Below are positions 10,401-33,369 of a stretch of DNA of 64,000 nt, in pieces. This DNA is from Microtetraspora fusca (lineage in GTDB: Bacteria > Actinomycetota > Actinomycetes > Streptosporangiales > Streptosporangiaceae). The notes under the pieces are model-generated. The model was not told where the DNA came from. It saw only the letters and a program-made list of their open reading frames with translations, and ran no database searches. The stretch covers positions 126,202 to 190,201 of the forward strand of contig NZ_BBYK01000042.1 of NCBI RefSeq assembly GCF_001570365.1. Reading direction: 5' to 3'. The translations under genes and the position numbers were made by a program. Position 1 is the stretch's first letter, and each line of letters starts with the position of its first letter.

Positions 10401-10422
10401 CTCTCCATATGAGGAGACGGTG

Positions 10423-11025
10423 ATGGAGGATCAGCGCTGGCTGGTCGTCGGCCTGGGCAACCCTGGGCCGGAGTACGCCGGGAACCGGCACAACGCGGGT
10501 TTCATGGTGCTGGACGAGCTGGCCGCGCGGGCAGGCGGCCGGTTCAAGGTGCACAGGTCGCGCGCGGAGATCGTCGAGGGGCGGCTGGCGGGGGCTCCCG
10601 CGGTGCTGGCGAAGCCGCTGTCGTTCATGAACCTGTCCGGCGGCCCGGTGAAGGCGCTCGCCGACTTCTACAAGGTGGCCCCGACGCACGTGGTCGTGGT
10701 CCACGACGAGCTGGACATCCCGTACGGCGCCCTGCGGGCGAAGCTCGGCGGCGGCGACAACGGGCACAACGGCCTGAAGTCGATCACGAAGTCGCTGGGG
10801 ACGCGAGACTACCTCCGGATCAGGTTCGGCATCGGCCGGCCTCCGGGGCGGATGGATCCGGCGGCGTTCGTGCTGAAGGACTTCGCGACGGTGGAGCGCA
10901 AGGACCTGCCGTTCCTGGTGGATCGGGCGGCGGACATGGTGGAGTCGCTGGTCAGGGCGGGGCTGGAGGCCACGCAGAACGCGTTCCACGCGGCCGATCT
11001 GAACCCGGTCAAGCCTCCTCGGTGA
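10423..11025 (+). CDS. pth: Peptidyl-tRNA hydrolase
   Basis: A 200-residue Pth that releases tRNA from stalled or dropped-off peptidyl-tRNA. Conserved features seen: [17 protein letters not shown] with the catalytic His of NRHN, SFMNLSG, HDELDIP with the catalytic Asp, and [12 protein letters not shown]. The ATG at 10423 is 6 bases after GAGGAG; a GTG at 10420 is in frame but too close. The last 17 bases overlap the oppositely transcribed exonuclease gene. Confidence 0.96.
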
Positions 11026-11675: not shown

Positions 11676-13193
11676 GTGCGTTCGGTGATGGATCGATCAC
11701 GGTGGGGGCGAGGCGTGCAGGAGGGCGAGCTGGCGGCGGCCGTGGGCGCGCCGGGGAACGCACCGGGGAACGCGCCGGGGAGATCGTCGGCCTCTCCCGT
11801 CCCGCGGCCGCCGCGATGGGCCTCGCGGTACCGGTTCCACGCCGCCCTCCTCGACGTCGGCTGCGCCCTCCTCGCCGGGACCGCCGCGATGGCAGCCCGG
11901 TTCGGCGAGGTTACTCCGTACGTCGCCCCCTATGTCGTGATGAGCGCGCTGCTGCCGTTGTTGTGGGTGTGCTCGGTCGGCATCAACCGGGCGTACGAGC
12001 CGCGCCTGATCGGGGTGGGGTCGGAGGAGTTCCGCCGCATCGCCCAGTCGGGCTTCACGCTGATCGCCGCCGTCGCGATCGCCGCGTACGTGACGAAGAC
12101 CGACGTGGCCCGCGGCTACGTGGTGCTCGCCCTGCCCGCGCTGACCGGGCTCACCCTCTGCGCCCGGTACGTGCTGCGGCGCAGGCTGCATCGCCGCTGG
12201 GCGAGGGGTGGCTGCATGCGCAGGGTCGTGGCCGTCGGCCACCGGGCCGCGATCACCGACCTGACCCGGCGGTTCCGGCGTGAGCGCTACCACGGGATGG
12301 AGATCGTCGCGGCCTGCGTGCCGTACGACGCGTTCGGCGAGGTGGAGGGCGTGCCGGTGCTCGGCGACTTCACCGACGTCCCGCTGGTGGTGGAGCAGGC
12401 GGAGGCGGACACGGTGGCGGTGCTGGCCTGCCCCGAGCTGGACGGTACGGCGCTGCGGCGGCTGGCGTGGCGGCTGGAGCGCAGCCGGACCGACCTCGTG
12501 GTCGCGCCCGCGCTGATGGAGGTGGCGGGCCCGCGCACCACGATCCGCCCGGTTGCCGGGCTGCCGTTGCTTCACGTGGAACATCCGGAACTGGCCGGGA
12601 TCCGGCAACTCATCAAGAACGTCTTCGACCGGGTGGTGGCGGGGACGGCGCTCGTCGTCCTGTCCCCGCTGCTGGTCACCCTCGCGGTCGCGGTACGCGT
12701 GACGAGCCCGGGGCCGGCGCTGTTCCGCCAGACGCGGGTCGGCAAGGACGGCGTCGAGTTCACCATCCTGAAGTTCCGCACGATGTGGCAGGACGCGGAG
12801 GCACGCAAGGTCGATCTGATCAGCGACGCGGGCGGGGTGCTGTTCAAGATCCGTCAGGATCCGCGGGTCACGCCGATGGGGAGCTGGCTGCGCCGCCGCT
12901 CCCTTGACGAACTGCCCCAATTGATCAACGTTGTGAAGGGACACATGTCGCTCGTGGGGCCGCGTCCGCCGCTTCCGGAGGAGGTCGCGCGGTACCGTGA
13001 CGACGTCCGCAGGCGGCTCGTCGTCCGCCCGGGCATGACGGGCCTGTGGCAGGTGAACGGGCGATCGGACCTGTCGTGGGAGGAATCGGTGCGGCTTGAC
13101 CTGCGTTATGTCGAGAGCTGGTCTCTCATGCTGGATCTGCAGATCCTGTGGAAGACGTGGTCGGCCGTGATACGCGGGGCGGGAGCTTACTGA
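11676..13193 (+). CDS. Undecaprenyl-phosphate sugar phosphotransferase initiating exopolysaccharide synthesis
   Basis: Up to 505 residues. A Pro/Asn-rich cytoplasmic N-terminus (with a GNAP repeat) is followed by about four to five membrane segments (about 52-165), a nucleotide-binding-like soluble middle, one more membrane segment (about 315-340) and the bacterial sugar-transferase domain. Motifs: ALFRQTRVGKDG, ILKFRTM, LDELPQLINVV, SLVGPRPPLPEEV and RPGMTGLWQVNGR. The family transfers a hexose-1-phosphate (Glc or Gal) from UDP-sugar to undecaprenyl phosphate in the inner leaflet, the committed step. The start is uncertain: GTG 11676, ATG 11688 and GTG 11715 are in frame and only the last has a purine-rich leader. 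It is the first gene of the plus arm. Confidence 0.92.
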   Translation: MRSVMDRSRWGRGVQEGELAAAVGAPGNAPGNAPGRSSASPVPRPPRWASRYRFHAALLDVGCALLAGTAAMAARFGEVTPYVAPYVVMSALLPLLWVCSVGINRAYEPRLIGVGSEEFRRIAQSGFTLIAAVAIAAYVTKTDVARGYVVLALPALTGLTLCARYVLRRRLHRRWARGGCMRRVVAVGHRAAITDLTRRFRRERYHGMEIVAACVPYDAFGEVEGVPVLGDFTDVPLVVEQAEADTVAVLACPELDGTALRRLAWRLERSRTDLVVAPALMEVAGPRTTIRPVAGLPLLHVEHPELAGIRQLIKNVFDRVVAGTALVVLSPLLVTLAVAVRVTSPGPALFRQTRVGKDGVEFTILKFRTMWQDAEARKVDLISDAGGVLFKIRQDPRVTPMGSWLRRRSLDELPQLINVVKGHMSLVGPRPPLPEEVARYRDDVRRRLVVRPGMTGLWQVNGRSDLSWEESVRLDLRYVESWSLMLDLQILWKTWSAVIRGAGAY

Positions 13194-13955
13194 ATGGCGA
13201 TGCGGGACGACCACGGTCTGGCCGGCGAGCTGGCGTCGGAGGCGGGAGAGCTGCTGCTGCGGCTGCGCGCCGAGCGAGGCTTCGCCGATCCGAAGGCGCT
13301 GAAGGACGCGGGAGACCGCGGGGCACATGACCATCTGATGGAGGCGCTGCGGCGGCTGCGGCCGGGCGACGCCGTCCTGTCGGAGGAGGCCACGCGCGAG
13401 GAGCGGCTGGACCCCCGGAGGCTCTCGGCCGAGCGGGTGTGGATCGTCGATCCCCTGGACGGCACCCGCGAGTTCGCCGAGGAGGGCCGCTCCGACTGGG
13501 CCGTCCATGTGGCGCTGTGGGAGCGCGGCGCGCTGACGGCGGGTGCGGTGGCGCTGCCGGCACAGGGCCGGACGCTCACCACCGCCGAGCCGCCCACGCT
13601 GCCGGACCGGCGGGGGCGCTTCCGCATCGCGGTCAGCCGCACCCGGCCCCCGGAGTTCGTGGAGAAGCTGGCGCACGAACTGGGCGCCGAGCTGGTGCCG
13701 ATCGGCTCGGCCGGAGCCAAGATCGCGGCGGTGCTGACGGGCGAGGTCGAGGCGTACGTCCACGCGGGCGGCCAGTACGAATGGGACTCGGCCGCGCCGG
13801 TCGCGGTCGCGCTGGCGGCGGGGGCGCACGCCAGCCGGATCGACGGCTCGCCGCTCGTGTACAACCAAGCCGACCCCTCATTGCCGGATATCCTGGTCTC
13901 CCTACCGGATGTGGCGCCAACTTTGCTCGCCGGCATCCGTGACCTGCACCGCTAG
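13194..13955 (+). CDS. cysQ: 3'(2'),5'-bisphosphate nucleotidase (PAP phosphatase)
   Basis: A 253-residue inositol-monophosphatase-family protein. The metal-binding motifs are SEEA (upstream Glu pair), DPLDGTREF and WDSAAPVAV near the C-terminus. CysQ converts PAP, the by-product of sulfotransferases and a toxic inhibitor, to AMP and phosphate. The ATG directly abuts the TGA of the preceding gene, so the two are coupled. Placement next to cysDN and three sulfotransferases fixes the likely substrate as PAP rather than inositol phosphate. Confidence 0.88.
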   Translation: MAMRDDHGLAGELASEAGELLLRLRAERGFADPKALKDAGDRGAHDHLMEALRRLRPGDAVLSEEATREERLDPRRLSAERVWIVDPLDGTREFAEEGRSDWAVHVALWERGALTAGAVALPAQGRTLTTAEPPTLPDRRGRFRIAVSRTRPPEFVEKLAHELGAELVPIGSAGAKIAAVLTGEVEAYVHAGGQYEWDSAAPVAVALAAGAHASRIDGSPLVYNQADPSLPDILVSLPDVAPTLLAGIRDLHR

Positions 13956-13974
13956 CCCGTCGAAGGAATCCCCT

Positions 13975-14889
13975 ATGCTTCAGCGCGACTACACGACGTC
14001 GCAGCTCGACGTCCTGGAGGCCGAGGCGATCCACATCATGCGTGAGGTCGCGGCGGAGTTCGAGCGCCCCTGTCTGCTCTTCTCCGGTGGCAAAGACTCC
14101 ATCGTGATGCTCCGCGTCGCCGAGAAGGCGTTCTGGCCGGCGCCGATCCCGTTCCCTCTGATGCACGTGGACACCGGGCACAACTTCCCGGAGGTCATCG
14201 AGTTCCGCGACCGGCGCGCCGCCGAGCTGAGCGCCCGGCTCGTGGTGGCCAGCGTGCAGGCGTCGATCGACGCCGGGCGGGTGGCCGAGGAGACCGGCCG
14301 GCGCGCCTCGCGCAACCGGCTGCAGACCACCACCCTGCTGGACGCCATCGAGGAACACGAGTTCGACGCCGTGTTCGGCGGCGCCCGGCGTGACGAGGAG
14401 AAGGCCCGCGCGAAGGAGCGGGTCTTCTCCTTCCGTGACGACTTCGGCCAGTGGGACCCGAAGAACCAGCGCCCCGAGCTGTGGAACCTGTACAACTCGA
14501 AGATCCGCAAGGGGGAGCACATCCGCGTGTTCCCGCTGTCGAACTGGACCGAGCTGGACATCTGGGACTACATCCGGCGCGAGGGGATCGAGATCCCGTC
14601 CATCTACTTCGCGCACACCCGCAGCGTGTTCGAGCGGGACGGCATGCTGCTCCCGGACGCCGAGGTGGTGCGGCGCGGCGAGGACGAGCCGCTGTTCGAG
14701 GCCACCGTCCGGTACCGCACGGTCGGCGACATGACCTGCACCGGCGCCGTGGCGTCGACCGCCGTGACGGTCGAGCAGATCATCGAGGAGATCGCGGTGA
14801 CGCGGCTCACCGAGCGCGGCGCGACGCGCGCCGACGACCGGGCATCGGAGGCCGCGATGGAGGACCGCAAGAAGGAAGGCTACTTCTAA
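13975..14889 (+). CDS. cysD: Sulfate adenylyltransferase subunit 2
   Basis: A 304-residue ATP-PPi-loop enzyme. The pyrophosphatase-type loop LFSGGKDSIVML lies at about residues 37-48, and GARRDEEKARAKER and the C-terminal DRKKEGYF ending are typical of CysD. With CysN it makes adenosine-5'-phosphosulfate (APS) from ATP and sulfate. The ATG at 13975 follows GAAGGA; reading further upstream would enter the cysQ tail in another frame. Its stop overlaps the start of cysN by one base. Confidence 0.96.
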   Translation: MLQRDYTTSQLDVLEAEAIHIMREVAAEFERPCLLFSGGKDSIVMLRVAEKAFWPAPIPFPLMHVDTGHNFPEVIEFRDRRAAELSARLVVASVQASIDAGRVAEETGRRASRNRLQTTTLLDAIEEHEFDAVFGGARRDEEKARAKERVFSFRDDFGQWDPKNQRPELWNLYNSKIRKGEHIRVFPLSNWTELDIWDYIRREGIEIPSIYFAHTRSVFERDGMLLPDAEVVRRGEDEPLFEATVRYRTVGDMTCTGAVASTAVTVEQIIEEIAVTRLTERGATRADDRASEAAMEDRKKEGYF

Positions 14890-16151
14890 TGGACATCCTT
14901 CGTTTCGCCACCGCGGGTTCGGTCGATGACGGCAAGTCGACGCTGATCGGGCGGCTGCTGTTCGACTCCAAGGCGATCTTCGAGGACCAGTTGGAGGCGG
15001 TCGAGCGGACCTCGCGCGATCGCGGCACGGAGTACACGGACCTGTCGCTGCTCACCGACGGCCTGCGCGCCGAGCGGGAGCAGGGCATCACGATCGACGT
15101 CGCGTACCGCTACTTCGCGACGCCGAAGCGGAAGTTCATCATCGCCGACACCCCCGGGCACATCCAGTACACCCGGAACATGGTGACCGGCGCCTCCACC
15201 GCCGACCTGGCGATCATCCTGATCGACGCGCGCAAGGGCGTACTTGAGCAGTCGCGGCGGCACGCGTTCCTGACGACGCTGCTGCGGGTGCCGCACCTGG
15301 TCCTCGCGGTGAACAAGATGGACCTGGTCGACTACGCCGAGGAGCGGTTCGAGGAGATCCGTGAGGAGTTCACCTCCTTCGCGTCCAAGCTGAACGCGGC
15401 GGACCTCACGTTCATCCCGATCTCGGCGCTGCACGGCGACAACGTGGTCTCCCGGTCGGAGAACATGCCGTGGTACCAGGGGTCCTCGCTGCTGCACCAC
15501 CTGGAGAACGTGCACATCGCCTCCGACCGGAACCTGGTGGACGTGCGCTTCCCCGTGCAGTACGTCATCCGGCCGCACAACGCGACCAGCCAGGACTTGC
15601 ACGACTACCGCGGCTACGCCGGCCAGGTGGCCGGCGGCGTGCTGAAGCCGGGCGACGAGGTCACCCACCTGCCTTCGGGGCTGTCCACCCGGATCTCGGC
15701 GATCGACACGTTCGACGGGCCGGTGGAGGAGGCGTTCCCGCCCATGTCGGTCACCCTCCGGCTGGAGGACGACATCGACATTTCGCGCGGCGACATGATC
15801 TGCCGACCGCACAACCAGCCGGCCGCCGCCCAGGAGATCGAGGCGATGGTGTGCTGGATGGCCGACACCACCAAGCTGCAGTCCCGGTCCAAGCTGATCA
15901 TCAAGCACACGACGCGTACGGCGCGGGCCCTGGTGCGCGACCTGCAGTACCGGCTCGACGTCAACACCCTGCACCGGGACGAGTCAGCGACGGCGCTCGG
16001 CCTCAACGAGATCGGCCGGGTGTCGCTGCGCGTCACCCAGCCGCTGTTCGTGGACGACTACGCGCGTAACCGGCTCACCGGCGGCTTCATCCTCATCGAC
16101 GAGGCCACGAACGGCACGGTGGGCGCGGGCATGATCGTCGACGCCCGGTAG
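14889..16151 (+). CDS. cysN: Sulfate adenylyltransferase subunit 1 (GTPase)
   Basis: A 420-residue EF-Tu-like GTPase that drives APS synthesis by CysD. G-motifs: GSVDDGKST (P-loop, about 10-18), EQGITIDVAYR (switch I), DTPGH (switch II), NKMD and SAL. It stops after the beta-barrel domains, with no fused APS kinase, unlike the longer CysNC forms. APS kinase is instead supplied by the separate gene at 27583-28800. It starts in a TAATG overlap with cysD. Confidence 0.96.
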   Translation: MDILRFATAGSVDDGKSTLIGRLLFDSKAIFEDQLEAVERTSRDRGTEYTDLSLLTDGLRAEREQGITIDVAYRYFATPKRKFIIADTPGHIQYTRNMVTGASTADLAIILIDARKGVLEQSRRHAFLTTLLRVPHLVLAVNKMDLVDYAEERFEEIREEFTSFASKLNAADLTFIPISALHGDNVVSRSENMPWYQGSSLLHHLENVHIASDRNLVDVRFPVQYVIRPHNATSQDLHDYRGYAGQVAGGVLKPGDEVTHLPSGLSTRISAIDTFDGPVEEAFPPMSVTLRLEDDIDISRGDMICRPHNQPAAAQEIEAMVCWMADTTKLQSRSKLIIKHTTRTARALVRDLQYRLDVNTLHRDESATALGLNEIGRVSLRVTQPLFVDDYARNRLTGGFILIDEATNGTVGAGMIVDAR

Positions 16152-16231
16152 ATCCTTCGCCGTTCCGTGAACGGATAATTACCCAAAGCGCTAGGGTCAT
16201 CACGTTCCGTATCCACGTGGTGGAGGGGTCC

Positions 16232-17185
16232 GTGACGGACGCGCAGCCGGTGATCTTCGTGGGAGGGCTCGGCCGCAGCGGCACCACATTGCTGGAGCGG
16301 CTGCTGGGCGAGCTCCCCGGCGCCGTGCCGCTCGGGGAGGTCGTCCATCTCTGGGCGCGCGGCGTCCACGCCGACGAGCCGTGCGGGTGCGGCGAGCCCT
16401 TCTCCCGCTGTCCCTTCTGGGGCAAGGTGGGCGATCTGGCGTTCGGGCACTGGCGTGCGGATGAGGCCGACCGCGTGCTCCGGCTGCGGGCCCGGGTGGA
16501 TCGCACCCGCCGCGTTCCGTTGCTCGCTCTCGGCGGCTTGCCGGCCTCCGGGAGCGGCCGTCGGGCGGCCGAGCTGCGCGCGTACGTGTCGGCCTACACC
16601 GCGCTCTATGCCGCGGCCGCCGAGGTGGCCGACGGCCGCTGGGTGATCGACTCCAGCAAGCACGCCTCCCTGGCGTACTGCCTGGCCGCGGCGGGGGAGA
16701 CACGGCCCCGGCTGCGGGTCGTCCACGTAGTACGCGATCCGCGCGCGGTGGCGGCGTCGTGGCACAGCGACGTGACACGGCCGGAGGACGGCCGCCCGAT
16801 GGCCCGGTGGGCGCCGGGGCGCACGGCCGTCCACTGGCTCGCGCAGAACCTCGCCTTCGAGCTGCTGCGCCGCCGGGGTGTGCCGGTCGTCCGGATCCGG
16901 TACGAGGACCTGCTGCGGCGCCCGGCCGAGACGCTGCGCGAGCTGACCGCGGCGTTGGGGGTGTCGTCCGGCGCGCTGCCGTTCCTCGGGGACGGCGGGG
17001 CGCTGCTCGGCGTCGCGCACACCGTGTCCGGTAACCCGATGCGGTTCGCGGTGGGGCGGGTGCGGTTCAGCGAGCGCAGGGTCACGCTGCCGCTCGGCCG
17101 GCGGTTGCTGGTCACCGCGCTCACCTGGCCGCTCCTGCTGCGCTACGGCTATCGCCTGGCGCCGCGGGCGGAGGCCGGGGCGTGA
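16232..17185 (+). CDS. PAPS-dependent sulfotransferase (first of three)
   Basis: A 317-residue sulfotransferase-fold protein. The 5'-phosphosulfate loop is GLGRSGTTLLERLL (residues 12-25) and the 3'-phosphate site is VRDPRAVAASWHSD. It would transfer sulfate from PAPS to an acceptor, here most likely a sugar hydroxyl of the polysaccharide or its lipid-linked unit. The GTG at 16232 lies 3 bases after GGAGGGG; the in-frame GTG at 16217 lies before that site. It contains CGCGEPFSRCPFW, a Cys-rich segment seen in several bacterial members. The stop overlaps the next GTG by 4 bases. Confidence 0.85.
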   Translation: MTDAQPVIFVGGLGRSGTTLLERLLGELPGAVPLGEVVHLWARGVHADEPCGCGEPFSRCPFWGKVGDLAFGHWRADEADRVLRLRARVDRTRRVPLLALGGLPASGSGRRAAELRAYVSAYTALYAAAAEVADGRWVIDSSKHASLAYCLAAAGETRPRLRVVHVVRDPRAVAASWHSDVTRPEDGRPMARWAPGRTAVHWLAQNLAFELLRRRGVPVVRIRYEDLLRRPAETLRELTAALGVSSGALPFLGDGGALLGVAHTVSGNPMRFAVGRVRFSERRVTLPLGRRLLVTALTWPLLLRYGYRLAPRAEAGA

Positions 17186-18099
17186 AGCCGTCCGTCGGCG
17201 TCGTGATCCCGACGCGCGGCGAGCGGCCCGAGCTGCTCGCGGCCGCGGTGGCGGGCGTGCTCGACCAGGAGTACGGCCGGCGGATCCGGGTGGTCGTGGT
17301 GGTCGACGGCGGCGGCGACGCGCTGGGCCCGGCGGAGCAGATCACCGACGTGGTGGCGGCGACCCGGGGGAGCGTCCGGGTGGTCGCGAACCGGCGCGCC
17401 CGCGGGCTGCCCGGCGCCCGCAACACCGGGATCGACGAGCTGGACACCGACCTGGTGGCGTTCTGCGACGACGACGACCGGTGGCTGCCCGGCAAGCTCG
17501 CGGCCCAGGTGGCGGCGCTGGAGGGCGAGCCGGAGGCCGACTTCGCCAGCTGCGCGATCGAGGTCGCGTACGGCTCCCGCCTGGTTCCCCGGCAGGCGGG
17601 CGCCGAGCGGGTCACCCGGGCCGATCTGACCAGGTCGCGGATGGTGATGGTGCACTCCTCGACGTTCCTCTTCCGCGCGTCGGCGGGTTATCGGGCCGAC
17701 GAGAGCGCCCCCGGCGGGCAGAACGAGGACTGGGATCTCGCGTTGCGGGCGGCGGCCCGGCATCCGATCGTGCACGTCGACCGGCCGCTGGTCCGGGTGC
17801 GCTGGGGCGGGTCCGGATATGTCGCCAGATGGGCGGATCGGATCGCCGGGCTGGAGTGGATGCTCGCCCGGCACGCCGACCTGGAGACGGATCCGCGCGG
17901 CGCGGCCCGCATCTACGGCCAGATGGCGTTCCACCACGCCGCGCTCGGCCGTCGCAGGGACGCCGGCCGGTGGGCCTGGAAGGCGTTCTCGGCGCATCGC
18001 CGCGAGCCGCGCGCCGCCGTGGCGCTCGCGGTGGCCACCGGTCTCGTGCCCGCACGGGCCGTGCTCGGCCTGCTGCACACGTGCGGCCGGGGCATCTGA
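17182..18099 (+). CDS. Family 2 glycosyltransferase
   Basis: A 305-residue GT-A fold enzyme. VGVVIPTRGERPELL at the N-terminus, RGLPGARNTGI in the nucleotide-sugar region, the DDDD of FCDDDDRW as the metal-binding DXD, and the catalytic-region GGQNEDWDLALR are all visible. It would add one sugar to the lipid-linked repeat unit on the cytoplasmic face. A C-terminal helical part (about 215-305) has no clear membrane anchor. It starts in a GTGA overlap with the sulfotransferase and ends in a TGATG overlap with the GT26 gene. Donor sugar unknown. Confidence 0.88.
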   Translation: MKPSVGVVIPTRGERPELLAAAVAGVLDQEYGRRIRVVVVVDGGGDALGPAEQITDVVAATRGSVRVVANRRARGLPGARNTGIDELDTDLVAFCDDDDRWLPGKLAAQVAALEGEPEADFASCAIEVAYGSRLVPRQAGAERVTRADLTRSRMVMVHSSTFLFRASAGYRADESAPGGQNEDWDLALRAAARHPIVHVDRPLVRVRWGGSGYVARWADRIAGLEWMLARHADLETDPRGAARIYGQMAFHHAALGRRRDAGRWAWKAFSAHRREPRAAVALAVATGLVPARAVLGLLHTCGRGI

Positions 18100-18947
18100 T
18101 GCGCACGAGGCCGGCCCAGCCGGGCCGGGTCATGTCGCCGTCCCGGCAGCGTATACGCGTCGCCGCCGTGGAGCTGGATCCGCTCGCCGAGCACGAGGTC
18201 GTGGCGCGGGTGTTCGCGGAGCTGCGCCGCGGCAGGGGCGGCCACGTGCTCACTCCCAACGTGGACATCTGCCGGCTGGCCGCTCGCGACCCGGAGCTGC
18301 GCGGCCTGGTCGGGCGGGCGGACCTCGCCGTCGCGGACGGCATGCCGCTGGTGTGGGCGTCCCGGCTGCTCGGCACGCCGATTCCGGAGCGGGTGACCGG
18401 CGCCGACCTGATCTGGGCGCTGTCCGAGGCGGCGGCCCGGCAGGGCGTCCCCGTCTACCTGCTGGGCGGCCCTCCCGGCGCGGCCGAGGCGGCGGCGGAG
18501 GCGCTGCGGGCGCGCTTCCCGCGCCTCGTCGTCGCCGGGACCCAGGCCCCGCCGTACGGGTTCGAGTCGGCCCCGGGAGGTGTGGCCGCGATCAGGCACG
18601 CCCTGCGCGCGGCGGCGCCCGGACTGGTCTTCGTCGGGCTCGGCTTCCCCAAGCAGGACCGGCTGATCGAGGTGCTGCGCGCCGATCTGCCCGGCGCGTG
18701 GTTCGTCGGCTGCGGGTCCGCCATCGCCTTCGCGGCCGGGACCGTACGGCGTGCGCCGGAGTGGATGCGCGGCGCGGGCCTGGAGTGGTTGTTCCGGCTG
18801 CTGTCCGAGCCGGCCCGGCTGGCGCGCCGGTACCTCGTGCACGACGCGCCGTTCGCCCTGCGGCTGCTCGCCGGGTGCGCGCTCCGGCGCGTGGTCAGAC
18901 GGGCGCGGAGGTCAGCTCCCGGATCCGGGACACCTCGTCGGGCGTGA
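18099..18947 (+). CDS. WecG/TagA/CpsF-family (GT26) glycosyltransferase
   Basis: A 282-residue GT26 protein. Conserved segments are LTPNVDICRLAARDPEL, RADLAVADGMPLVW, RVTGADLI, GGPPG and GLGFPKQD. Known members transfer N-acetylmannosamine, ManNAcA or glucose to lipid-linked acceptors, usually as the second sugar. It starts in a TGATG overlap with the GT2 gene (an internal ATG at 18132 is possible). It is the last gene of the plus arm, and its final 53 bases overlap antisense the 3' end of the second sulfotransferase. Confidence 0.88.
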   Translation: MRTRPAQPGRVMSPSRQRIRVAAVELDPLAEHEVVARVFAELRRGRGGHVLTPNVDICRLAARDPELRGLVGRADLAVADGMPLVWASRLLGTPIPERVTGADLIWALSEAAARQGVPVYLLGGPPGAAEAAAEALRARFPRLVVAGTQAPPYGFESAPGGVAAIRHALRAAAPGLVFVGLGFPKQDRLIEVLRADLPGAWFVGCGSAIAFAAGTVRRAPEWMRGAGLEWLFRLLSEPARLARRYLVHDAPFALRLLAGCALRRVVRRARRSAPGSGTPRRA

Positions 18948-21994: not shown

Positions 21995-22938
21995 AGCAGG
22001 GGCTCCAGATGGTCGACGAGTGGGTTGAGCCAGGTCGAGGCCGGGCCGAGCGGTTCGTGGCCGTCTCGATCGTGCCGGTCGGCGAGGGTGATCAGGTAGT
22101 GCGCCGCGGTACGCCGGGCCTCCGCCGCCGAGAGCCCGAACGGCGCGAGGAGGGGGACGGCCCGAGCCAGGCAGGCGCGGGTGGCGCTCACCGGCCCCAT
22201 ACGCCGCAGGACACGGTGCAGGAAGTGGTGGAGCGCGTCGAAGCCGAGGGGAACGCCGGTGCCGAACCGTTCCCAGTCCCAGACGAGGAGCCGCCCGTCG
22301 GCGGCCGGGGAGACGTTCCAGGGGGCGAAGTCGCCGTGCCATGCGTGGCCGCCCGAGGGGACCGGTGGGGCGTCGTCCCCGAGTGAGGCGATCTCGGAGA
22401 CGGCCGCGTCGAGCAGGGCGGGCGGCGCCGCGGCCGACGTGACCGGCAGCGGCGAGAGGACCAGCACGTCCATGCCGTGCCAGACGCCGTGGTGCAGCAC
22501 GACCGGCACCGCGATGGTCTTCAACGGACGGTCGGCGAGCATGCGCAGGGTGGCGCTCTCGTGCCGGATCAGCGCGCGGGCCCGCTCGGAGTCGCCGACC
22601 TTGACGAAGCCGAGCGGCTCGCGTCCGGTCCCGTCCGTGGCGGCGTGGGCGGAGAGGATCGGCTTGCGGTTGGCCCGGCGGGCGGGCCGTACCCGCAGCA
22701 CGGCGCGGATCGGGTGGCCGAACACCTCGCCGAGGTACGTCTCGATCGTGTCGGGGCCGTCGGGCACCGGAACCCGCCCGCCGCGGCCGAGGACGGCGTG
22801 CCAGCGCGTACGCGGGACGAGCCGCCGGGGGACCAGCCGGTGCGGCAGGACCGTCCGCTCGGTCGTGGTCGCGGACGGCGGGTAGAGCAGGCCGATGACC
22901 TCGTGGAGGTAGCGCAGCCGGGCCTCGGCGTCACCCAT
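21991..22938 (-). CDS. Phosphotransferase (APH/choline-kinase fold) protein
   Basis: A 315-residue protein with the kinase-like catalytic motif HGDFAPWN (Brenner loop HGDxxxxN) and, 12 residues on, WDWERFG holding the metal-binding Asp. Similar small kinases phosphorylate aminoglycosides, choline, homoserine or sugars. Inside this locus a sugar or lipid-linked glycan is a reasonable target, but that is inference; it is not evidence of antibiotic resistance. The N-terminal 120 residues are poorly conserved-looking. Its start overlaps the polymerase gene by 8 bp and its end overlaps the sulfotransferase start by 4 bp. Confidence 0.7.
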   Translation of the reverse strand: MGDAEARLRYLHEVIGLLYPPSATTTERTVLPHRLVPRRLVPRTRWHAVLGRGGRVPVPDGPDTIETYLGEVFGHPIRAVLRVRPARRANRKPILSAHAATDGTGREPLGFVKVGDSERARALIRHESATLRMLADRPLKTIAVPVVLHHGVWHGMDVLVLSPLPVTSAAAPPALLDAAVSEIASLGDDAPPVPSGGHAWHGDFAPWNVSPAADGRLLVWDWERFGTGVPLGFDALHHFLHRVLRRMGPVSATRACLARAVPLLAPFGLSAAEARRTAAHYLITLADRHDRDGHEPLGPASTWLNPLVDHLEPLL

Positions 22939-24229
22939 GCGCCCACCTCGCGTTCCGTGGCGCCTGCCGCTGGGCCGCGTTGCGCCAGAGCAGCGCGAAC
23001 GAGATCAGGTAGAGGCTCAGCGCGCTGACCAGGCCGTCGTAGACGAACATGTAGAAGAGCACGAGGATCATGACGAGCGTGCCGGCCTGCCCGATCGGGG
23101 ACCTGTCGCTCCAGTAGCGCCGGATGGCGCCGAGGAAGAACGCGACGTACAGCGCCGCGCCTGTCAGACCCTGCGTGATGAGCGTGAGCCAGAGCTGGCC
23201 GTCGCTGCCGAGCGGAGGGTGGCCGCAGGTCGGGCACCACGCGGTCTTGCCCGTGGTGATCGTGGAGTAGTTGCCGTACGCGTTGCGGGTGTTGCCGTAG
23301 CCGATCACAGGGGAGGTGGCGGCGGCGCGGACGGTGGACGCCACGGTGAAGGCTCGGATGTCGTTGCTGTGTGGGTTGGCCAGCCGCTGCCCCACGATCG
23401 CGGCGAGCGGGGACAGCAGCAGCGCTCCGCCGGCCAGGGCGACGGCCACGCCGACGACGAGGGGCCGCCAGCGGAAGGCGAGGTAGGCGGCCGACAGCGC
23501 GAGCCCGATCCACAGGCCGCGGTTCAGCGAGTAGACGATGGGGATCGCGGCCAGGGGCAGCAGCACGGCGACGGCCACCCGCCGCCCCCGCCCGCCGTAC
23601 GTCCACCAGCCGACCACGAACCAGACGAGCAGCACCGAGATGTTGCTGCCCCAGGCGTTGGCCCACTCGAACGGCGCCTCGGGCCGGGGGGAGGCGTGCC
23701 CCAGCACGTGCTGCACCTGGCCGGCGGTCGGATGGATCAGGTTCTTGACGAAGGAGTTCCCGCCGATCCAGTCGGGCAGCAGCAGCTCGACGGGGGCGGT
23801 GAACTGGAAGCCGGGGGCGAACACCCCGAGCAGTCCACCGGCCACGGTGGTGATGAAGAGCACGCCGAGCAGCCGGACCAGGGTGAGCTGGGGCAGCTCG
23901 TCGAGGGTGAGGTTGCCCAGATAGAGCACCGTGACGGCGAGCGCGACGTAGACGGCCAGGCGCATCAGGTAGCCGAGGATCCGGCCGGTGGACAGGTCGC
24001 CGTACGTGCCGGGCGGGTTCTCGGCCAGGGTGACCGCGCTGATCGCGTATCCGGCCAGCAGGAGGAACCACAGGCCCATGCCCTTCGGCACCTTGATCGG
24101 GCGTCTGCGCCACAGCACCACGGCCATCGGCACCGCGAGCACGACGATCGACAGCCCGCCCAGGCCGAGAGCCCACCAGATCGGATAGCCGGCGAGCAGG
24201 GCGGCGATCGGCCACACCGCCGGTCTCAT
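22931..24229 (-). CDS. O-antigen ligase/polymerase-like membrane protein (Wzy type)
   Basis: A 432-residue integral membrane protein with about 11 hydrophobic segments and a large extracytoplasmic loop (about 255-320). The loop contains GYGNTRNAYGNYST and CPTCGHPPLGSDGQLW, matching the Wzy_C region where the family has conserved Gly, His and Arg residues. It would polymerise flipped repeat units outside the membrane. The ATG at 24229 overlaps the stop of the chain-length gene by 4 bases. The loop carries a CPTC pair that might form a disulfide. Confidence 0.82.
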   Translation of the reverse strand: MRPAVWPIAALLAGYPIWWALGLGGLSIVVLAVPMAVVLWRRRPIKVPKGMGLWFLLLAGYAISAVTLAENPPGTYGDLSTGRILGYLMRLAVYVALAVTVLYLGNLTLDELPQLTLVRLLGVLFITTVAGGLLGVFAPGFQFTAPVELLLPDWIGGNSFVKNLIHPTAGQVQHVLGHASPRPEAPFEWANAWGSNISVLLVWFVVGWWTYGGRGRRVAVAVLLPLAAIPIVYSLNRGLWIGLALSAAYLAFRWRPLVVGVAVALAGGALLLSPLAAIVGQRLANPHSNDIRAFTVASTVRAAATSPVIGYGNTRNAYGNYSTITTGKTAWCPTCGHPPLGSDGQLWLTLITQGLTGAALYVAFFLGAIRRYWSDRSPIGQAGTLVMILVLFYMFVYDGLVSALSLYLISFALLWRNAAQRQAPRNARWAHG

Positions 24230-25443
24230 GCGTTCTGCTTCATGGAGCGCGACGTCATGGGCAGGGTGGGCGGCACGGTGACCGCCCCGAGCACGGTCGT
24301 GCCCTGCCGGACCAGCCGTCGTACGGCCTGGGTGACCTCGGTCGAGGTCGTCCGGCGCAGGCCGAGGAGCAGTATGGCCGCGTCGGGCCGGTCGGCGGGG
24401 TCGGTGACCACGGCGACCGGCGCCAGGTGGGAGAGCGCGGCGCCGAGGCGTTCGGCGACCGGCGCCCCGCCGACCGTGCCGAGTTCGGCGACCAGCAGGC
24501 GGTGGTAGCCCTCGCCGAGGGAGGAGACCACGTCGGCCGCCAGCGAGCGGAAGGCCCCGGGGTCGGCACGCAGCGGGATGTCGGCGAGCAGCGGGAGCGT
24601 GGTGAGGCGCTCGACGTCGGCGGCGGTGCGCAGCCGGGTGTCGAGGCGGTCGCGAGCGAACGCGGCGCCCGTCCCGGCGAGCAGACCGAGGAAGAGGCCG
24701 CTGCCGAGGTACAGCGGGACGCTCGGGGCGCTGGGGGACGACGGGGGGCGGGCCTGGCTGATCACCGATCCCGGGATGATCGCGATGGTCTTGAGCGCGT
24801 CGTACTTGAGGCTGAGGCTGTAGACCTGCTTGCCGAGCACGGACTGCTGGTGCTCGGCGACCACGCGTGCGGCGGAGCCGCGGGCGAGCGTGGCGACGCT
24901 CTCCGCGGCCTTGCCGAGGTCGTCGTCCACCTGGTGCAACTGGGTGGACAGCGCCTTCATCTGGGCGGCCAGGCTGCGCGCGGCCGACAGCGTGCGGTTC
25001 TGGAGGTACGCCTCGGCGAACGCCTGGGCGCCCGCGGAGGCCGAGACGCGGTCGCCGGCGGTGAACCAGATGGAGAGGATGGCGGAATTGGGCGGCACGT
25101 CCACGACGACCTGCTCCCGCAATTCCTCCGAATCCGTCTTTTTCAAAATTTCAGCGGCTTTGGCGGCGACTGTCGCAGAGTGGGCGATTTGCGCCTCTGT
25201 ATCAAGGTTGAGCGGTTCGCGCAGCCGCGAGGTCACCTGATTGACCTGATCCTGAACGCCGGTCGGGAGGACCTGTACCTGGGCGACCGCCGTGTATTTC
25301 TTGGGCGTCACGACCAGCAGTCCGACGGCGCCCGCGACGCCTGTGAGCAGGCATGATGCGACGAGGAGCCGACGGCGGCGGAGAACCGAACCGTAGTCGG
25401 CGAGATCCCTGGTGTGCGGCGGCGGAAAAGAAGATCTCACCAT
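24226..25443 (-). CDS. Wzz/chain-length determinant with a degenerate tyrosine-kinase domain
   Basis: 405 residues. An N-terminal Wzz domain has one membrane segment near 25-45 (SCLLTGVAGAVGLLVV), a long extracytoplasmic coiled-coil region (about 100-200) and a second membrane segment near 230-250 preceded by a Pro/Ser-rich stretch. The cytoplasmic C-terminus (about 260-395) has the outline of a bacterial tyrosine kinase: LLADIPLR, EGYHRLLVAE, and a final ILLLGLRRTTSTEV-TQAVRRLV-GTTVLGAV. It has no Walker A or Walker B motif and no Tyr cluster. It should control chain length but not act as a kinase. ATG 25443 chosen; GTG 25449 also possible. It is the first gene of the minus arm. Confidence 0.8.
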   Translation of the reverse strand: MVRSSFPPPHTRDLADYGSVLRRRRLLVASCLLTGVAGAVGLLVVTPKKYTAVAQVQVLPTGVQDQVNQVTSRLREPLNLDTEAQIAHSATVAAKAAEILKKTDSEELREQVVVDVPPNSAILSIWFTAGDRVSASAGAQAFAEAYLQNRTLSAARSLAAQMKALSTQLHQVDDDLGKAAESVATLARGSAARVVAEHQQSVLGKQVYSLSLKYDALKTIAIIPGSVISQARPPSSPSAPSVPLYLGSGLFLGLLAGTGAAFARDRLDTRLRTAADVERLTTLPLLADIPLRADPGAFRSLAADVVSSLGEGYHRLLVAELGTVGGAPVAERLGAALSHLAPVAVVTDPADRPDAAILLLGLRRTTSTEVTQAVRRLVRQGTTVLGAVTVPPTLPMTSRSMKQNA

Positions 25444-25631
25444 GCCCACGAACTATAGGCGTGGTTGTGCTTTTCCCCATCGGATATTGAAAGATTTTCT
25501 TCCGCCGAATCGCGACGTAATAGCGAGCATTAATGCGAAATGTCCGATGGTGCGATATCACAAGTTCCCCTCGATCTTCCCTCCAGTAATGGCAAGGTGG
25601 CCCCCAAGGCCGTTCCAGTGAAGGGGGAAAG
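25444..25631. promoter_or_regulatory. Divergent promoter region of the polysaccharide locus
   Basis: This 188-bp AT-richer gap lies between the chain-length gene (minus) and the GH26 gene (plus). It contains a perfect 8-bp inverted pair CCATCGGA (25477-25484) and TCCGATGG (25543-25550), a 10-bp palindrome GCATTAATGC (25527-25536), and on the minus strand a TATAGT -10 ending about 8 bases before the ATG, which would give a nearly leaderless message. These are good candidates for regulator binding, but no regulator gene lies in the locus. Confidence 0.5.
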
Positions 25632-26672
25632 GTGCGGCGAACAGCGCTGATCGGACTTGCGGTACTGCTGGCGGGATGCTCGCCCGCGCCGAGCGTTCCC
25701 ACGGCGGGCGCGCGGCCTAGCCCCGACAACCGGCTCGGCACCCGCGGGGCGATGTCCTGCACGGTCACCGCGAAGCTCATCCCGACCTGTGGCGCGTGGT
25801 GGGGCATCGCGCCCGACATCTTCACCGGGCGGCGCGTGGACGAGGCCACCCTGCGCGCCGAGCGGCGGATGGGGCGCCGCGTCGACATCGTGCACGTCTA
25901 CCACCGGGACGGGGAGCTGTTCCCCACGCCGGTCGAGCGGGAGCTCGCCCAGGGGCGGCGATTGCTCCTGATCAACTGGAAGCCGTCCATGACCGCGAGC
26001 TGGGCCGAGGTCGCGAGCGGCGCGGTCGACCACCGCATCGACGTCCTCGCGGCGTACATCAAACGGACCTTCCCCGGCCGGTTCTTCCTCACCATCCACC
26101 ATGAACCGGAGGACGACGTGCGGCTGGACGGCGGCTACTCCGCCGAGGACTACGTGGCGATGTACCGCCACGTCGTCACCCGGCTGCGCAGCAGGGGAGT
26201 GACCAACGCGGTCACCGTGATGACGTACATGGGCGCGCCCAACTGGGCCACCAAGCCGTGGTTCGACAAGCTCTATCCGGGCGACGACGTGGTGGACTGG
26301 ATCGGGCTCGACCCGTACGCCGACGGGCGGGTCCACGACTTCGCCAGCCTGGTCAACAAGACCCGGCCCGACCATGCCCAGTGGCCGGGGTTCTACCGCT
26401 GGATCCAGTCACGCTTCCCCGGCAAGCCGATCATGCTCTCCGAGTGGGGGGCCTTCGAGCGGCCGACCATGCCGCAGTTCAAGCCGCAGTTCTTCTCCTC
26501 GGTCGCGCGGCAGATCAGCGACTTCCCGCAGATCAAGGCGCTGGTCTACTTCGACTCGCCGTCCGCGCCGCGCGGCGACACGCGCTTCGACTCCACCTCC
26601 GCGGCCGACCGGGCCTTCTCCAGCCTGGCCGGCGGCCCCTACTTCAGCGGGACGCAGGTTCCCACGCGCTGA
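25632..26672 (+). CDS. Secreted lipoprotein, GH26-like glycoside hydrolase
   Basis: 346 residues. A lipoprotein signal peptide with lipobox LLAGC (Cys16) is followed by a short Pro/Ser linker and a TIM-barrel-type hydrolase domain. HHEPED (about 156-161) and SEWGAFE (about 270-276) match the acid/base and nucleophile Glu positions of GH26 mannanase-like enzymes. The GTG follows AAGGGGGAAAG. It would sit on the outer face of the membrane and could trim, release or remodel the polysaccharide made by the locus. The exact linkage cut is unknown. Its 3' end overlaps the convergent TauE/SafE gene by 29 bp. Confidence 0.82.
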   Translation: MRRTALIGLAVLLAGCSPAPSVPTAGARPSPDNRLGTRGAMSCTVTAKLIPTCGAWWGIAPDIFTGRRVDEATLRAERRMGRRVDIVHVYHRDGELFPTPVERELAQGRRLLLINWKPSMTASWAEVASGAVDHRIDVLAAYIKRTFPGRFFLTIHHEPEDDVRLDGGYSAEDYVAMYRHVVTRLRSRGVTNAVTVMTYMGAPNWATKPWFDKLYPGDDVVDWIGLDPYADGRVHDFASLVNKTRPDHAQWPGFYRWIQSRFPGKPIMLSEWGAFERPTMPQFKPQFFSSVARQISDFPQIKALVYFDSPSAPRGDTRFDSTSAADRAFSSLAGGPYFSGTQVPTR

Positions 26673-27546
26673 CCGGCCGGTCCCGTACGGCTCGCGCCTT
26701 GGCCGCCCGCCACCCGAACGCGGCCGCGACGCCGAAGCAGGCCACGACGACCAGCAGGGGCACGTTGCCCACGCCGAGGAGCTTGAGCGAAGAGGCGAGC
26801 AGCACCACGGCCAGCGCCAGCCTGATCACCTGGTCCGGCGCCCACGCCGAGATCCGGGATCCGAGGTAGACACCGGGGATCGACCCGAGCAGGAGCGATG
26901 CGGTGAGATCGAGCTTGAAGTCGCCGAAGAGAATGTGGCCGGCGGCCGCGGAGGCGACCAGGGGGACCGCCTGGACGAGATCCGTCCCGACGAGCTGGTT
27001 GGCGCGCAGCGCCGGATAGACCATCACCAGCGCGACGACGATGAGCGAGCCGGACCCGACCGAGGTCACCCCCACGATCAGGCCGCCGACCATACCGATC
27101 AGTACAGTCGGTATTGGGCGCACGACGACATCGTGCGCGGAGAGCGCGCCCACCCCCTGGCGCAGGCTCAGGAACGACTTCGCCAGCAGGCCGGTGAGCG
27201 CGAGCAGCAGCGCCACGCCCAGCGCGTACTTGACGGACTGCTGCATCTGCTCGCCCTCGCCGAACAGCCGGGCGGCGAACACCCCGACGAACGCCATGGG
27301 AACCGAGCCCAGGCAGAGCCAGCCCACCATGCGCAGGTTCACGGTGCCGTTGCGCAGGTGGACCAGGCCGCCCACGGGCTTCATGACCGCCGAGGCGACG
27401 AGGTCGCTGGAGACCGCCGCGAGCGGCGGCACGTTGAAGAAGAGCATCATCATCGGCGTCATCAGGGCGCCGCCGCCCATGCCGGTCAGGCCGACGATGA
27501 TCGCCACCAGGAACGAGCCCGCCGCCAGCGCCGGATCGATCTCCAT
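26644..27546 (-). CDS. TauE/SafE-family membrane permease
   Basis: A 300-residue protein with about 8 membrane segments in two repeated halves, each starting with a Gly-rich motif (GLTGMGGGALMTPMM at about 19-33; VGVTSVGSGSLIVVAL near 163). The family moves sulfite, sulfate or organosulfonates. It lies 36 bases downstream of the APS kinase gene on the same strand, so the pair probably forms an operon, and sulfate uptake or sulfite efflux for the sulfation pathway is the sensible role. Direction of transport cannot be inferred. Confidence 0.85.
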   Translation of the reverse strand: MEIDPALAAGSFLVAIIVGLTGMGGGALMTPMMMLFFNVPPLAAVSSDLVASAVMKPVGGLVHLRNGTVNLRMVGWLCLGSVPMAFVGVFAARLFGEGEQMQQSVKYALGVALLLALTGLLAKSFLSLRQGVGALSAHDVVVRPIPTVLIGMVGGLIVGVTSVGSGSLIVVALVMVYPALRANQLVGTDLVQAVPLVASAAAGHILFGDFKLDLTASLLLGSIPGVYLGSRISAWAPDQVIRLALAVVLLASSLKLLGVGNVPLLVVVACFGVAAAFGWRAAKARAVRDRPVSAWEPASR

Positions 27547-27582
27547 GCGTCCCTCACCGCTCCCGGTTCCTGTTGTGGACGA

Positions 27583-28800
27583 TCACCGCACCCAGCCTCC
27601 GGAGGTCAGCAGGTTCAGCACGGCGGACACCGCGCGCTCCACCGACATGCCGGTGGTGTCCAGGGTGAGATCGGCGTCGTCCGGCTCCTCGTACGGGTCG
27701 GAGACGCCGGTGAACTCGGGGATCAGCCCGGCCCGGGCCTTGGCGTACAGGCCCTTGCGGTCGCGGCGCTCGCACTCCTCCAGCGGCGTGGAGACGTGGA
27801 CGAGCAGGAAGTCGGCGCCCACCTCCTCGACCATCGCGCGCACCTCGTCCCGGGTGGCCGCGTACGGCGCGATGGGGGCGCAGACGGCGATGCCGCCGTG
27901 CCGGGCCGCCTCGGCGGCGACGAAGCCGATCCGCCGGATGTTGTGGTCGCGGTCCTCACGCGAGAACGTCAGCCCGGCGGACAGGAGCCGGCGGACGACG
28001 TCGCCGTCCAGATAGGTGACGGTGCGGCCGCCCCGCTCCAGCAGGGCGTCGCGCAGCCCCCGGGCGATCGTCGACTTGCCGGAACCGGACAGGCCGGTGA
28101 AGAACACCACGAGGCCGCGGCGGTGCGGCGGCCCCGGGATGACGACCGGCGCGGGGCCCGCGTAGTGCTCGGTCGCGCCGTAGTTCCGCGCCACGTGCTC
28201 GCGCAGCTCCAGGTCGATCTCGGCGTCCTCGCGCGGCGCGAGCGGCACCGCGACCACGGTCGAGCCGGGCAGCGCCGCGGACGCCTTGAGCGCCGCGCGG
28301 ACCACGGCCGGGCCGCCCTCGCCGAACACGAGGGGGAGCAGCAGCACGGCGGCGTCCAGCTCCTGGGCGCTGGCGGCGATGTCGTCGATCGTGGTGGCGT
28401 CGAGCGGGCCCCGCATGGTCACCGCGAGGATCTCGCCGTCCGGCAGCTCCTTGCGCACGTCCTCGGGCGTACGGCGGAGCCGGGCGAACGGTCCGTACGC
28501 GGGGGCGTCGAGCGCCTCGACCGGGCCCGCGGCGTGGTGACCGTGCCGCTCGCGCACCGTCATGACGGCGACGGCCGCGCCCTCGGGATCCCGGAGCGTG
28601 ACCCGCTCGCCCACCGGGATGTCGTCGGGCAGGGCGATGGTGATCGGGTCGGGCCACGGGGTGCCGTCGGCGAGGCGTCCGCGCGCGATCACCTCGGCCA
28701 CGTCGGCGGCCGGGAGGAAGCCGTCGAGCGGCGCGTACGCCCCCGAGAGCAGCAGTTCCAGGTCGGCGAGCTCACGAGCGTCGGGGATCCACTCCGTCAT
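27583..28800 (-). CDS. cysC: APS kinase with a degenerate N-terminal ATP-sulfurylase domain
   Basis: 405 residues. The C-terminal APS kinase (about 228-405) is intact: P-loop GLSGSGKST (about 236-244), YLDGDVVR, DRDHNIRRIGF, KGLYAKARAG and YEEPDDADL. It phosphorylates APS to PAPS. The N-terminal part resembles ATP sulfurylase (LSGAYAPLDGFL, WPDPITIALP, RNYGATEHYAGPAP) but the catalytic QTRNPxHRxH is replaced by TMRGPLDATT and the GRDHAG motif is gone, so it should be inactive; CysDN supply that step. ATG 28800 chosen (MTEWIPDARE); ATG 28809 is also in frame. Confidence 0.87.
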   Translation of the reverse strand: MTEWIPDARELADLELLLSGAYAPLDGFLPAADVAEVIARGRLADGTPWPDPITIALPDDIPVGERVTLRDPEGAAVAVMTVRERHGHHAAGPVEALDAPAYGPFARLRRTPEDVRKELPDGEILAVTMRGPLDATTIDDIAASAQELDAAVLLLPLVFGEGGPAVVRAALKASAALPGSTVVAVPLAPREDAEIDLELREHVARNYGATEHYAGPAPVVIPGPPHRRGLVVFFTGLSGSGKSTIARGLRDALLERGGRTVTYLDGDVVRRLLSAGLTFSREDRDHNIRRIGFVAAEAARHGGIAVCAPIAPYAATRDEVRAMVEEVGADFLLVHVSTPLEECERRDRKGLYAKARAGLIPEFTGVSDPYEEPDDADLTLDTTGMSVERAVSAVLNLLTSGGWVR

Positions 28801-28905
28801 AGCTTCCATTTCCGATCGAATTAGTCGGATACCTACCTTAACCCCTGACATGGGCATGGCGCAGCCCTTGCCGGGATGTTCTGGAAGCTGACATTAATCC
28901 GTGGA

Positions 28906-29728: not shown

Positions 29729-29831
29729 GTCACCGATAGTAATCAACCCTGTTCGGAGGGTCGTGGATCCGGGGTGTGGCCCGCGGTTTGTCCGGGCGCG
29801 TCGGTGGGCGGGCGTAGCCTTGAGCACGTGC

Positions 29832-29855: not shown

Positions 29856-29883
29856 TTCGACCTGTGCCATCGTGGGGCTCTTC

Positions 29884-33369
<3,486 letters not shown>

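Follow-up and report, generated by a model that had tools for sequence, protein, structure and literature searches.

Gene content of the locus

The DNA analysed here, referred to as the window, is a 64,000 nt stretch of the Microtetraspora fusca genome (G000:C41:126202-190201; host genome 9.02 Mb in 108 contigs). Our subject is the gene cluster at positions 11676-28857 of the window, which is flanked by pth and mfd and combines genes for Wzx/Wzy-type polysaccharide assembly with genes for sulfate activation and for three sulfotransferases, termed ST1, ST2 and ST3 (Table 1). An initial annotation of this DNA had placed Wzx/Wzy genes, CysD, CysN, an adenosine-5′-phosphosulfate (APS) kinase and three sulfotransferases here, and all of them are present. 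It had closed the locus at 28809; the APS kinase gene is indeed present, but it ends at 28857 and has an N-terminus of PUA_2 or sulfurylase-like character. A GT26 glycosyltransferase, a GH26-like lipoprotein, a sugar-kinase-like protein and a TauE permease had gone unmentioned. On the evidence given below, the product of the locus is very probably a sulfated polysaccharide of the cell surface, made through the Wzx/Wzy route. What the sequence shows directly is the set of genes, the integrity of their motifs and the conservation of their linkage; the steps of the pathway we infer.

Marks of the Wzx/Wzy pathway exceed their cut-offs in three proteins, namely the polyprenyl glycosylphosphotransferase (PT; TIGR03025), the flippase Wzx (PF13440) and the chain-length regulator Wzz (PF02706). 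A simple hydropathy scan gives Wzx eight transmembrane segments. The Wzy polymerase of the window matches no Pfam family at an E-value of 0.01, and Wzy_C (PF04932) is found in 11 of the 12 remaining rows of the Wzy alignment (11 of 13 with the window copy). Several Wzy rows in which the stretch runs into a stop codon were excluded from alignment A1. No solved relative of Wzy was found, and its weak AlphaFold model (predicted local distance difference test score, pLDDT, 65) gave no Foldseek match at an E-value of 0.001.

The accessory proteins are informative to differing degrees. The kinase-like protein is likely to be a sugar or small-molecule kinase; its AlphaFold model has a pLDDT of 83.5, and the top three Foldseek rows are fructosamine-3-kinase (two chains) and APH(3′), with query template modelling scores of 0.46-0.50. 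In the GH26-like lipoprotein, the candidate catalytic glutamates E158 and E271 are kept in 79 of 79 and 78 of 79 aligned sequences, respectively; for the second residue, this count replaced a crude text motif that matched 6 of 78. The TauE permease is only loosely attached to the locus, being present in 37 of the 67 long named loci described below and kept also in a relative without polysaccharide genes (L207).

Sulfate activation and the sulfotransferases

The supply of 3′-phosphoadenosine-5′-phosphosulfate (PAPS) is represented by CysD and CysN, both of which exceed their cut-offs, and by an APS kinase domain (PF01583) with intact kinase motifs. This kinase is the only strong one in the genome (194 bits; family cut-off 21). 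One copy of CysD was found, the sulfurylase family PF01747 has no match anywhere in the genome, and CysDN is the sole ATP sulfurylase found in it; CysDN must therefore serve cysteine assimilation too. The earlier statement that PAPS and sulfite reductases are missing is true of the locus but not of the genome, where CysH is encoded outside the locus on contig C42, beside sulfite reductase and a CbiX gene. This CysH carries the cysteines CC..CxxC, which we take to be the mark of iron-sulfur APS reductases, and we type it as such. A CysH of this type draws on APS directly, and the cysteine route should then be independent of PAPS; judged from the gene complement, PAPS in this organism should be made for sulfation. 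Two marginal matches to the APS_kinase family, at C64:4107-4442 and C54:6849-7214 (23 and 22 bits), are probably other P-loop kinases.

All three sulfotransferases retain the elements expected for use of PAPS. The 5′-phosphosulfate loop and the 3′-phosphate motif, which we take to be those called 5′-PSB and 3′-PB, are near-invariant across 106 distinct sequences of ST1, 81 of ST2 and 146 of ST3. Among solved structures, ST3 is closest to a bacterial sulfotransferase (3rnl) and to heparan sulfate 3-O- and N-sulfotransferases; ST1 has weak solved relatives only, and for ST2 none was found. The genome has 10 rows of matches to PF13469, four of which (three genes) fall within the 17-kb locus.

A degenerate sulfurylase domain in CysC

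The N-terminus of CysC matches PUA_2 and has no match to PF01747; in alignments it corresponds to the sulfurylase half of the bifunctional ATP sulfurylase/APS kinases (3cr8, 2gks). The order of domains is the same as in those enzymes, and the active-site motifs of their kinase half are found in CysC. Their sulfurylase motif, Q-x-R-N/Q-P-x-H-x-x-H/Q, is by contrast absent, and even a lenient form of it occurs in none of the 105 aligned CysC sequences (one from the window and the others from 104 loci; 98 are distinct, and some genomes stand under two locus ids). In the same alignment the kinase P-loop, DGD and RDRKG are invariant or nearly so; a text motif for the P-loop missed 4 of the 105, in which the alignment shows an intact loop. 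In the catalytic-motif region the window copy reads TMRGPLDATT, compared with QARQPMHRAQ in 3cr8. The named copies from Streptosporangiaceae have lost both motif histidines; among more distant copies, both within that family and in its neighbours, readings such as RPLHHRAL and RPLHYDTI occur, and those of Actinoplanes type read RPLHRPQL. On these sequence grounds we read the N-terminal part of CysC as a pseudo-enzyme. By title, none of the listed matches of a literature search was relevant to inactive sulfurylase-APS kinase fusions.

Relationship to the wps-1 cluster of Actinoplanes missouriensis

The locus in the window belongs to a kind described in June 2026, when Tezuka and Ohnishi reported the wps-1 cluster (WpsA-K) of A. 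missouriensis and predicted a sulfated polysaccharide as its product (PMC13390465). According to the available portion of that report, mutants lacking wpsA, C, G, H, I, J or K form squashed sporangia, the wpsF mutant forms distorted and connected sporangia, the wpsE mutant gives a mixture, and wpsD is dispensable. Loss of AMIS_7390 leads to severely defective sporangia, a result that the authors termed 'unexpected', and the mutants, including that of AMIS_7390, show no visible difference in growth on two agar media (PMC13390465); these media may supply organic sulfur. The same text places the polymer in the sporangium matrix, as a hypothesis.

In a genome that appears to be that of A. missouriensis (G567; stretch L183), ten profiled genes stand in the published wps-1 order and at the site where that cluster is expected, with Wzy at 787,583-788,860, and hidden Markov models of the window type match GT2, GT26, the WpsB- and WpsH-type sulfotransferases, Wzx, the kinase, Wzy, Wzz and GH26. 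The two clusters have in common GT2, sulfotransferases of the ST1 and heparan-sulfate types, GT26, GH26, Wzx, the kinase-like protein, Wzy, Wzz and a sulfurylase/APS-kinase gene, and the run wzx-ST3-kinase-wzy-wzz has the same order in both. In L183 cysC adjoins wzz, whereas in the window the GH26 gene and tauE stand between them. Only the window has cysQ-cysD-cysN, PT, ST2, TauE and the pth and mfd flanks; scans of the 20-kb L183 detected none of these (the PT and pth profiles have few members), and L183 yielded no separate relative of ST2. Unlike wps-1, the window has no detected DUF4262 gene (WpsD), for which the scanned ORFs (open reading frames) of the locus gave no match, and no detected counterpart of WpsF inside the locus, the sole methyltransferase gene at the locus (Table 1) being unmatched in L183. 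In four loci of family f39, to which this apparent A. missouriensis genome belongs (L183, L185, L187 and L188), a further gene of GH26 type stands close to cysC on the other strand.

The homologue of AMIS_7390, at 15093-16700 on the minus strand of L183, is the only APS kinase of its genome and has a degenerate sulfurylase motif, although the available text of the report calls AMIS_7390 a member of an APS-forming family (PMC13390465). The CysH of that genome is likewise of the APS-reductase type (CC..CxxC). With a sole APS kinase and a CysH of this kind, the sporangium phenotype would follow from loss of PAPS, which can explain the observation; the simple reading is that AMIS_7390 is the only APS kinase and the source of PAPS.

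Distribution, linkage and descent

Relatives of the Wzy protein are found in 31 of a set of 60 genomes, the host genome included. A homologue of ST3 stands in 31 of the 32 loci around Wzy matches other than that in the window, the exception being a 10.8-kb contig (L059), and in 22 of the 31 Wzy-bearing genomes the genes for Wzy and an APS kinase are at most 17 kb apart on the same contig. All 37 members of the host family in this set have an APS kinase and CysD, in single copy in 35 and 33 of them, respectively.

Linkage was counted in a named set made up of the best 80 of at least 572 relatives, hence tilted to close relatives; nearly all carry genus names that we take to belong to Streptosporangiaceae. 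In the 67 of these 80 loci that exceed 20 kb, ST2, ST3, Wzz, Wzy, the kinase and GH26 are always present, and Wzx, CysC, mfd and the methyltransferase are present in 66. The counts for GT26 (59), ST1 and GT2 (58 each), CysN (48), CysD (44), CysQ (34) and PT (21) are lowered by flank ends as well as by any absence. Distances among ST1-3, CysC, kinase and GH26 proteins track the Wzy distances (r 0.80-0.86; 0.74 for Wzx) and also the Mfd distances (r 0.64-0.77), a pattern that favours largely vertical inheritance across this set.

When the class was sampled evenly, 77 of 394 genomes gave a Wzy match; in the host family 35 of the 41 listed genomes match, the window's own included, and in f39 the figure is 173 of 200, some of the matches being weak. 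Class matches outside the host family numbered 42, of which 39 were taken as 40 stretches, two had been taken earlier and one, cut by its contig (G179), was left out. Fifty-nine loci, comprising these 40 and 19 hand-picked from the 173 matching genomes of f39 (L184 left out), were scored as having a sulfotransferase if a protein exceeded 200 bits to the ST1, ST2 or ST3 profile. A sulfotransferase is present in 36 of 36 loci with a strong Wzy match (340 bits) and in 7 of 23 with a weak one (Fisher p 2e-9, to be taken as indicative only, the cut having been set after the scores were seen and the loci being mutually related). The corresponding values are 37 of 39 and 6 of 20 at 300 bits (p 3e-7), and 35 of 35 and 8 of 24 at 380 bits (p 7e-9). 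A map filter on overlapping ORFs hid sulfotransferases in two loci (L149, L166) and cysQ in three (L204, L205, L207); the Fisher counts and a recheck are unfiltered. The arrangement recurs in tens of genomes and, with four of the 10 PF13469 rows of the host genome falling in the locus, is more than chance would give.

This distribution bears on a reading in which the sulfotransferases act on a glycolipid, a quinone or another small molecule and the Wzx/Wzy polymer is left unsulfated. In favour of it, mycobacterial Stf enzymes sulfate small molecules, and PF13469 enzymes with small-molecule substrates exist; the substrate is unreadable from sequence, ST1 has weak solved relatives only, and none was found for ST2. 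Against such a reading stand the co-distribution with Wzx, Wzy and Wzz, the position of ST3 nearest to heparan-sulfate sulfotransferases among solved chains named for their substrate, and the one phenotype that wpsH and wpsJ mutants share in the available text on A. missouriensis (PMC13390465). We hold it to be highly improbable.

The cys genes have a history of their own. In five relatives in which no relative of this Wzy was found (L203-L207), cysQDN and cysC stay near pth and mfd. One has the order pth-cysQDN-mfd-cysC (G021) and another pth-cysQDN-tauE-cysC-methyltransferase-mfd (G019, L207), each with no polysaccharide gene of the set in the stretch examined; two retain the kinase and GT2 (G009, G010), and one the kinase and ST3 (G013). 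The sulfate-activation genes look like older residents of the pth-mfd slot, either there before the polysaccharide cluster or left after its loss. We also considered whether every cys gene serves the polymer exclusively, and reject this for cysDN, which is the sole sulfurylase and persists without polysaccharide genes.

It could be argued from these facts that the cys genes are a mere assimilation set beside an ordinary exopolysaccharide cluster, and that sulfation of the polymer has been over-read; both the sole sulfurylase and the persistence of cysQDN and cysC in G019 and G021 agree with this. Such an arrangement would leave unexplained why the cluster contains three sulfotransferases whose PAPS motifs are intact and which track this Wzy subfamily, and why there is an APS kinase, which should be superfluous beside an APS-reductase-type CysH. 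The loss of AMIS_7390, which spoils sporangia with no visible growth difference in the available text (PMC13390465), counts against it weakly, as the media may supply organic sulfur. We regard an assimilation set alone as very unlikely.

Sulfation of the polymer is the best reading of the locus, as the initial annotation had proposed, given a Wzy subfamily linked to sulfotransferases, a sole strong APS kinase and a published homologue; what does not stand is a dedicated CysDN. Several observations nevertheless weigh against it. The persistence of cysQDN and cysC without this Wzy indicates that they are not tied to the polymer alone and that PAPS must have other users in those relatives. Wzy and the APS kinase lie on separate contigs in 9 of the 31 Wzy-bearing genomes. 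Six other PF13469 rows, one of them under the cut-off, are found elsewhere in the genome. The sulfotransferase profiles were built from window-type loci, so diverged sulfotransferases beside weak Wzy matches may escape them and inflate the contrast. The protein previously called CysQ belongs to the inositol-phosphatase family and has CysQ as its best NCBIfam model (TIGR01331), but scores 109 bits, under the cut-off of 229. At the position where a heparan sulfate 3-O-sulfotransferase has Glu, 137 of the 146 ST3 sequences carry Gly, within K-G-x-H-Y-F-D, from which it follows that use of the donor can be transferred but acceptor chemistry cannot. In the available text on A. missouriensis, the mutant of wpsB, the ST1-like gene, is normal by scanning electron microscopy and releases about tenfold fewer spores, and the authors state that the sulfated polysaccharide awaits verification (PMC13390465). 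Finally, the literature search found chemical proof of sulfate for none of these loci.

Proposed pathway and place of the polymer

In the pathway that we propose for the sulfated polysaccharide, PT would load the first sugar phosphate onto a polyprenyl carrier, and the GT2 and GT26 enzymes would lengthen the chain to a short repeat unit. The predicted cytosolic enzymes ST1-3 would then sulfate the lipid-linked unit using PAPS, after which Wzx would flip it, Wzy would polymerise it and Wzz would set the length of the chain, with the GH26-like lipoprotein trimming the polymer outside the cell. CysDN would yield APS, shared with cysteine synthesis through the APS-reductase-type CysH. Part of this APS would be turned into PAPS by CysC, with the CysQ-like phosphatase clearing 3′-phosphoadenosine-5′-phosphate (PAP).

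The genes of the locus do not indicate where the polymer ends up, and GT26 enzymes of the WecG/TagA type are found with wall polymers as well. The product might be a sulfated oligosaccharide-lipid or a teichuronic-acid-like wall polymer instead of a released or matrix polysaccharide, which we think unlikely in view of the conserved Wzy, Wzz and GH26-like lipoprotein and of the placement in the sporangium matrix, itself a hypothesis, in the available text on wps-1 (PMC13390465).

Carriers of the locus include Planomonospora, Planobispora, Streptosporangium, Sphaerisporangium, Nonomuraea, Microbispora and Microtetraspora. The first four are known for sporangia and the last three are not. A role in spore envelopes or in aerial growth generally fits better than one in sporangia alone, and the polymer, by homology with wps-1, probably belongs to an envelope or matrix around spores and not to sporangia alone. 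As a more speculative extension, which we put forward with considerable doubt, a sulfated glycan modified by heparan-type enzymes might be ancestral in the spore or sporangium envelope of Streptosporangiaceae and the Actinoplanes family, sulfate activation might, in Streptosporangiaceae, be hard-wired into the slot pth-cysQDN-(polysaccharide genes)-cysC-mfd, and the pseudo-sulfurylase might gate APS from cysteine to PAPS during sporulation.

Comparison with other sulfated polysaccharides

The initial annotation had described sulfated polysaccharides as little reported in actinobacteria. That description needs qualifying, since the wps-1 report makes the same prediction (PMC13390465) and sulfate has been measured, by a turbidity method and infrared spectroscopy, in an exopolysaccharide of Streptomyces rochei OF1 (PMC9911575), each source as far as its available text goes. 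The available text on S. rochei shows no genes for the biosynthesis of that polymer. Among the open-licence papers listed, PMC13390465 was the sole one on such a cluster in an actinomycete. The logic of PAPS supply, the dead sulfurylase domain and the breadth of occurrence, including genera not known for sporangia, are new here.

Elsewhere, the xss cluster for synechan in Synechocystis PCC 6803, whose product is reported to contain sulfate, resembles the window in having Wzx, Wzy, a polysaccharide co-polymerase and two sulfotransferases of distinct subfamilies. It differs in its eight glycosyltransferases and Gram-negative export, and PAPS is unmentioned in the available main text, the comparison being by description only (PMC8205485). 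Sulfated capsular polysaccharides with sulfotransferase genes are described, in the accessible text, for the marine bacteria Vibrio sp. KMM 8419 and Cobetia marina KMM 1449, likened to the window by description only (PMC11641403, PMC11766843); a claim of 'cyanobacteria only' is therefore too narrow. If our reading of the locus is true, sulfated polysaccharides would be common in large groups of soil actinomycetes, beyond cyanobacteria and marine bacteria, and the locus would offer bacterial heparan-type sulfotransferases together with a testable model of how APS is split between cysteine and sulfation.

Gene boundaries and neighbouring features

Table 1. Features of the locus and its flanks, in window coordinates. 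Values are bit scores unless marked as E-values.
Feature	Position	Strand	Basis or remark
pth	10420-11025		Next comes a small gene whose exonuclease match is below threshold
PT, predicted to start the repeat unit	11676-13193	+	PF02397; TIGR03025 412, cut-off 296
CysQ-like PAP phosphatase, inositol-phosphatase family	13194-13955	+	PF00459; motifs kept in relatives
CysD, ATP sulfurylase small subunit	13975-14889	+	TIGR02039 449, cut-off 397
CysN, ATP sulfurylase GTPase subunit	14886-16151	+	TIGR02034 580, cut-off 336
ST1 sulfotransferase, WpsB-like	16217-17185	+	PF13469 69.7, cut-off 27; GRSGTT and RDP conserved
GT2 glycosyltransferase, WpsA-like	17182-18099	+	PF00535
GT26 glycosyltransferase (WecG/TagA/CpsF), WpsC-like	18099-18947	+	PF03808, E-value 3.5e-57
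ST2, second PF13469 sulfotransferase	18895-19830	-	PF13469 44.7, cut-off 27; PAPS motifs
Wzx flippase, WpsG-like	19830-21116	-	PF13440 27.2, cut-off 23; MatE
ST3, heparan-sulfate-type sulfotransferase, WpsH-like	21113-22009	-	PF00685 50, cut-off 22
APH/fructosamine-kinase-fold protein, WpsI-like	21991-22938	-	AlphaFold and Foldseek; HGD..PWN and WDWE conserved
Wzy polymerase, WpsJ-like	22931-24229	-	Hydropathy, eight transmembrane segments
Wzz chain-length regulator, WpsK-like	24226-25449	-	PF02706 34.6, cut-off 25.5
GH26-like secreted lipoprotein, putative polymer-trimming hydrolase, WpsE-like	25632-26672	+	PF02156; lipobox-like LAGC
TauE/SafE permease, predicted sulfur-anion traffic	26644-27546	-	PF01925
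CysC, APS kinase with N-terminal putative pseudo-ATP-sulfurylase, AMIS_7390-like	27583-28857	-	PF01583 191, cut-off 21; PUA_2
Methyltransferase	28982-29845		Beside mfd; kept outside the parts list
mfd	29872-33369		Right flank of the locus

Two of the starts in Table 1 lie inside longer ORFs: that of cysD opens at 13909, with the family match beginning at about 13990, and that of ST3 opens at 22342, with the conserved part beginning near 22009. The methyltransferase gene was rejected as a part of the locus; in L207 it adjoins mfd without polysaccharide genes. Two arginine-rich ORFs without a family, at 17819-18961 (plus strand) and 17913-18842 (minus strand), were rejected as genes, the true gene at that site being the GT26 gene.

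Elsewhere in the genome, a third, partial match to the PAPS-reductase domain (PF01507) lies at C48:209526-209858, in the same 18-kb stretch (L062, C48:200500-218866) as a DUF4007 gene; DUF4007 and PAPS-reductase-domain genes occur together in some DNA-modification or defence islands. Upstream of the locus, an ordinary-looking TetR-type regulator adjoins a fatty-acid desaturase gene at 3024-5154 of the window, ahead of tRNA-Gln and a glmU-like gene, and a helix-turn-helix ORF at 5468-6355, with weak sub-threshold similarity to IS630 and IS21 transposases, is a possible transposase remnant.

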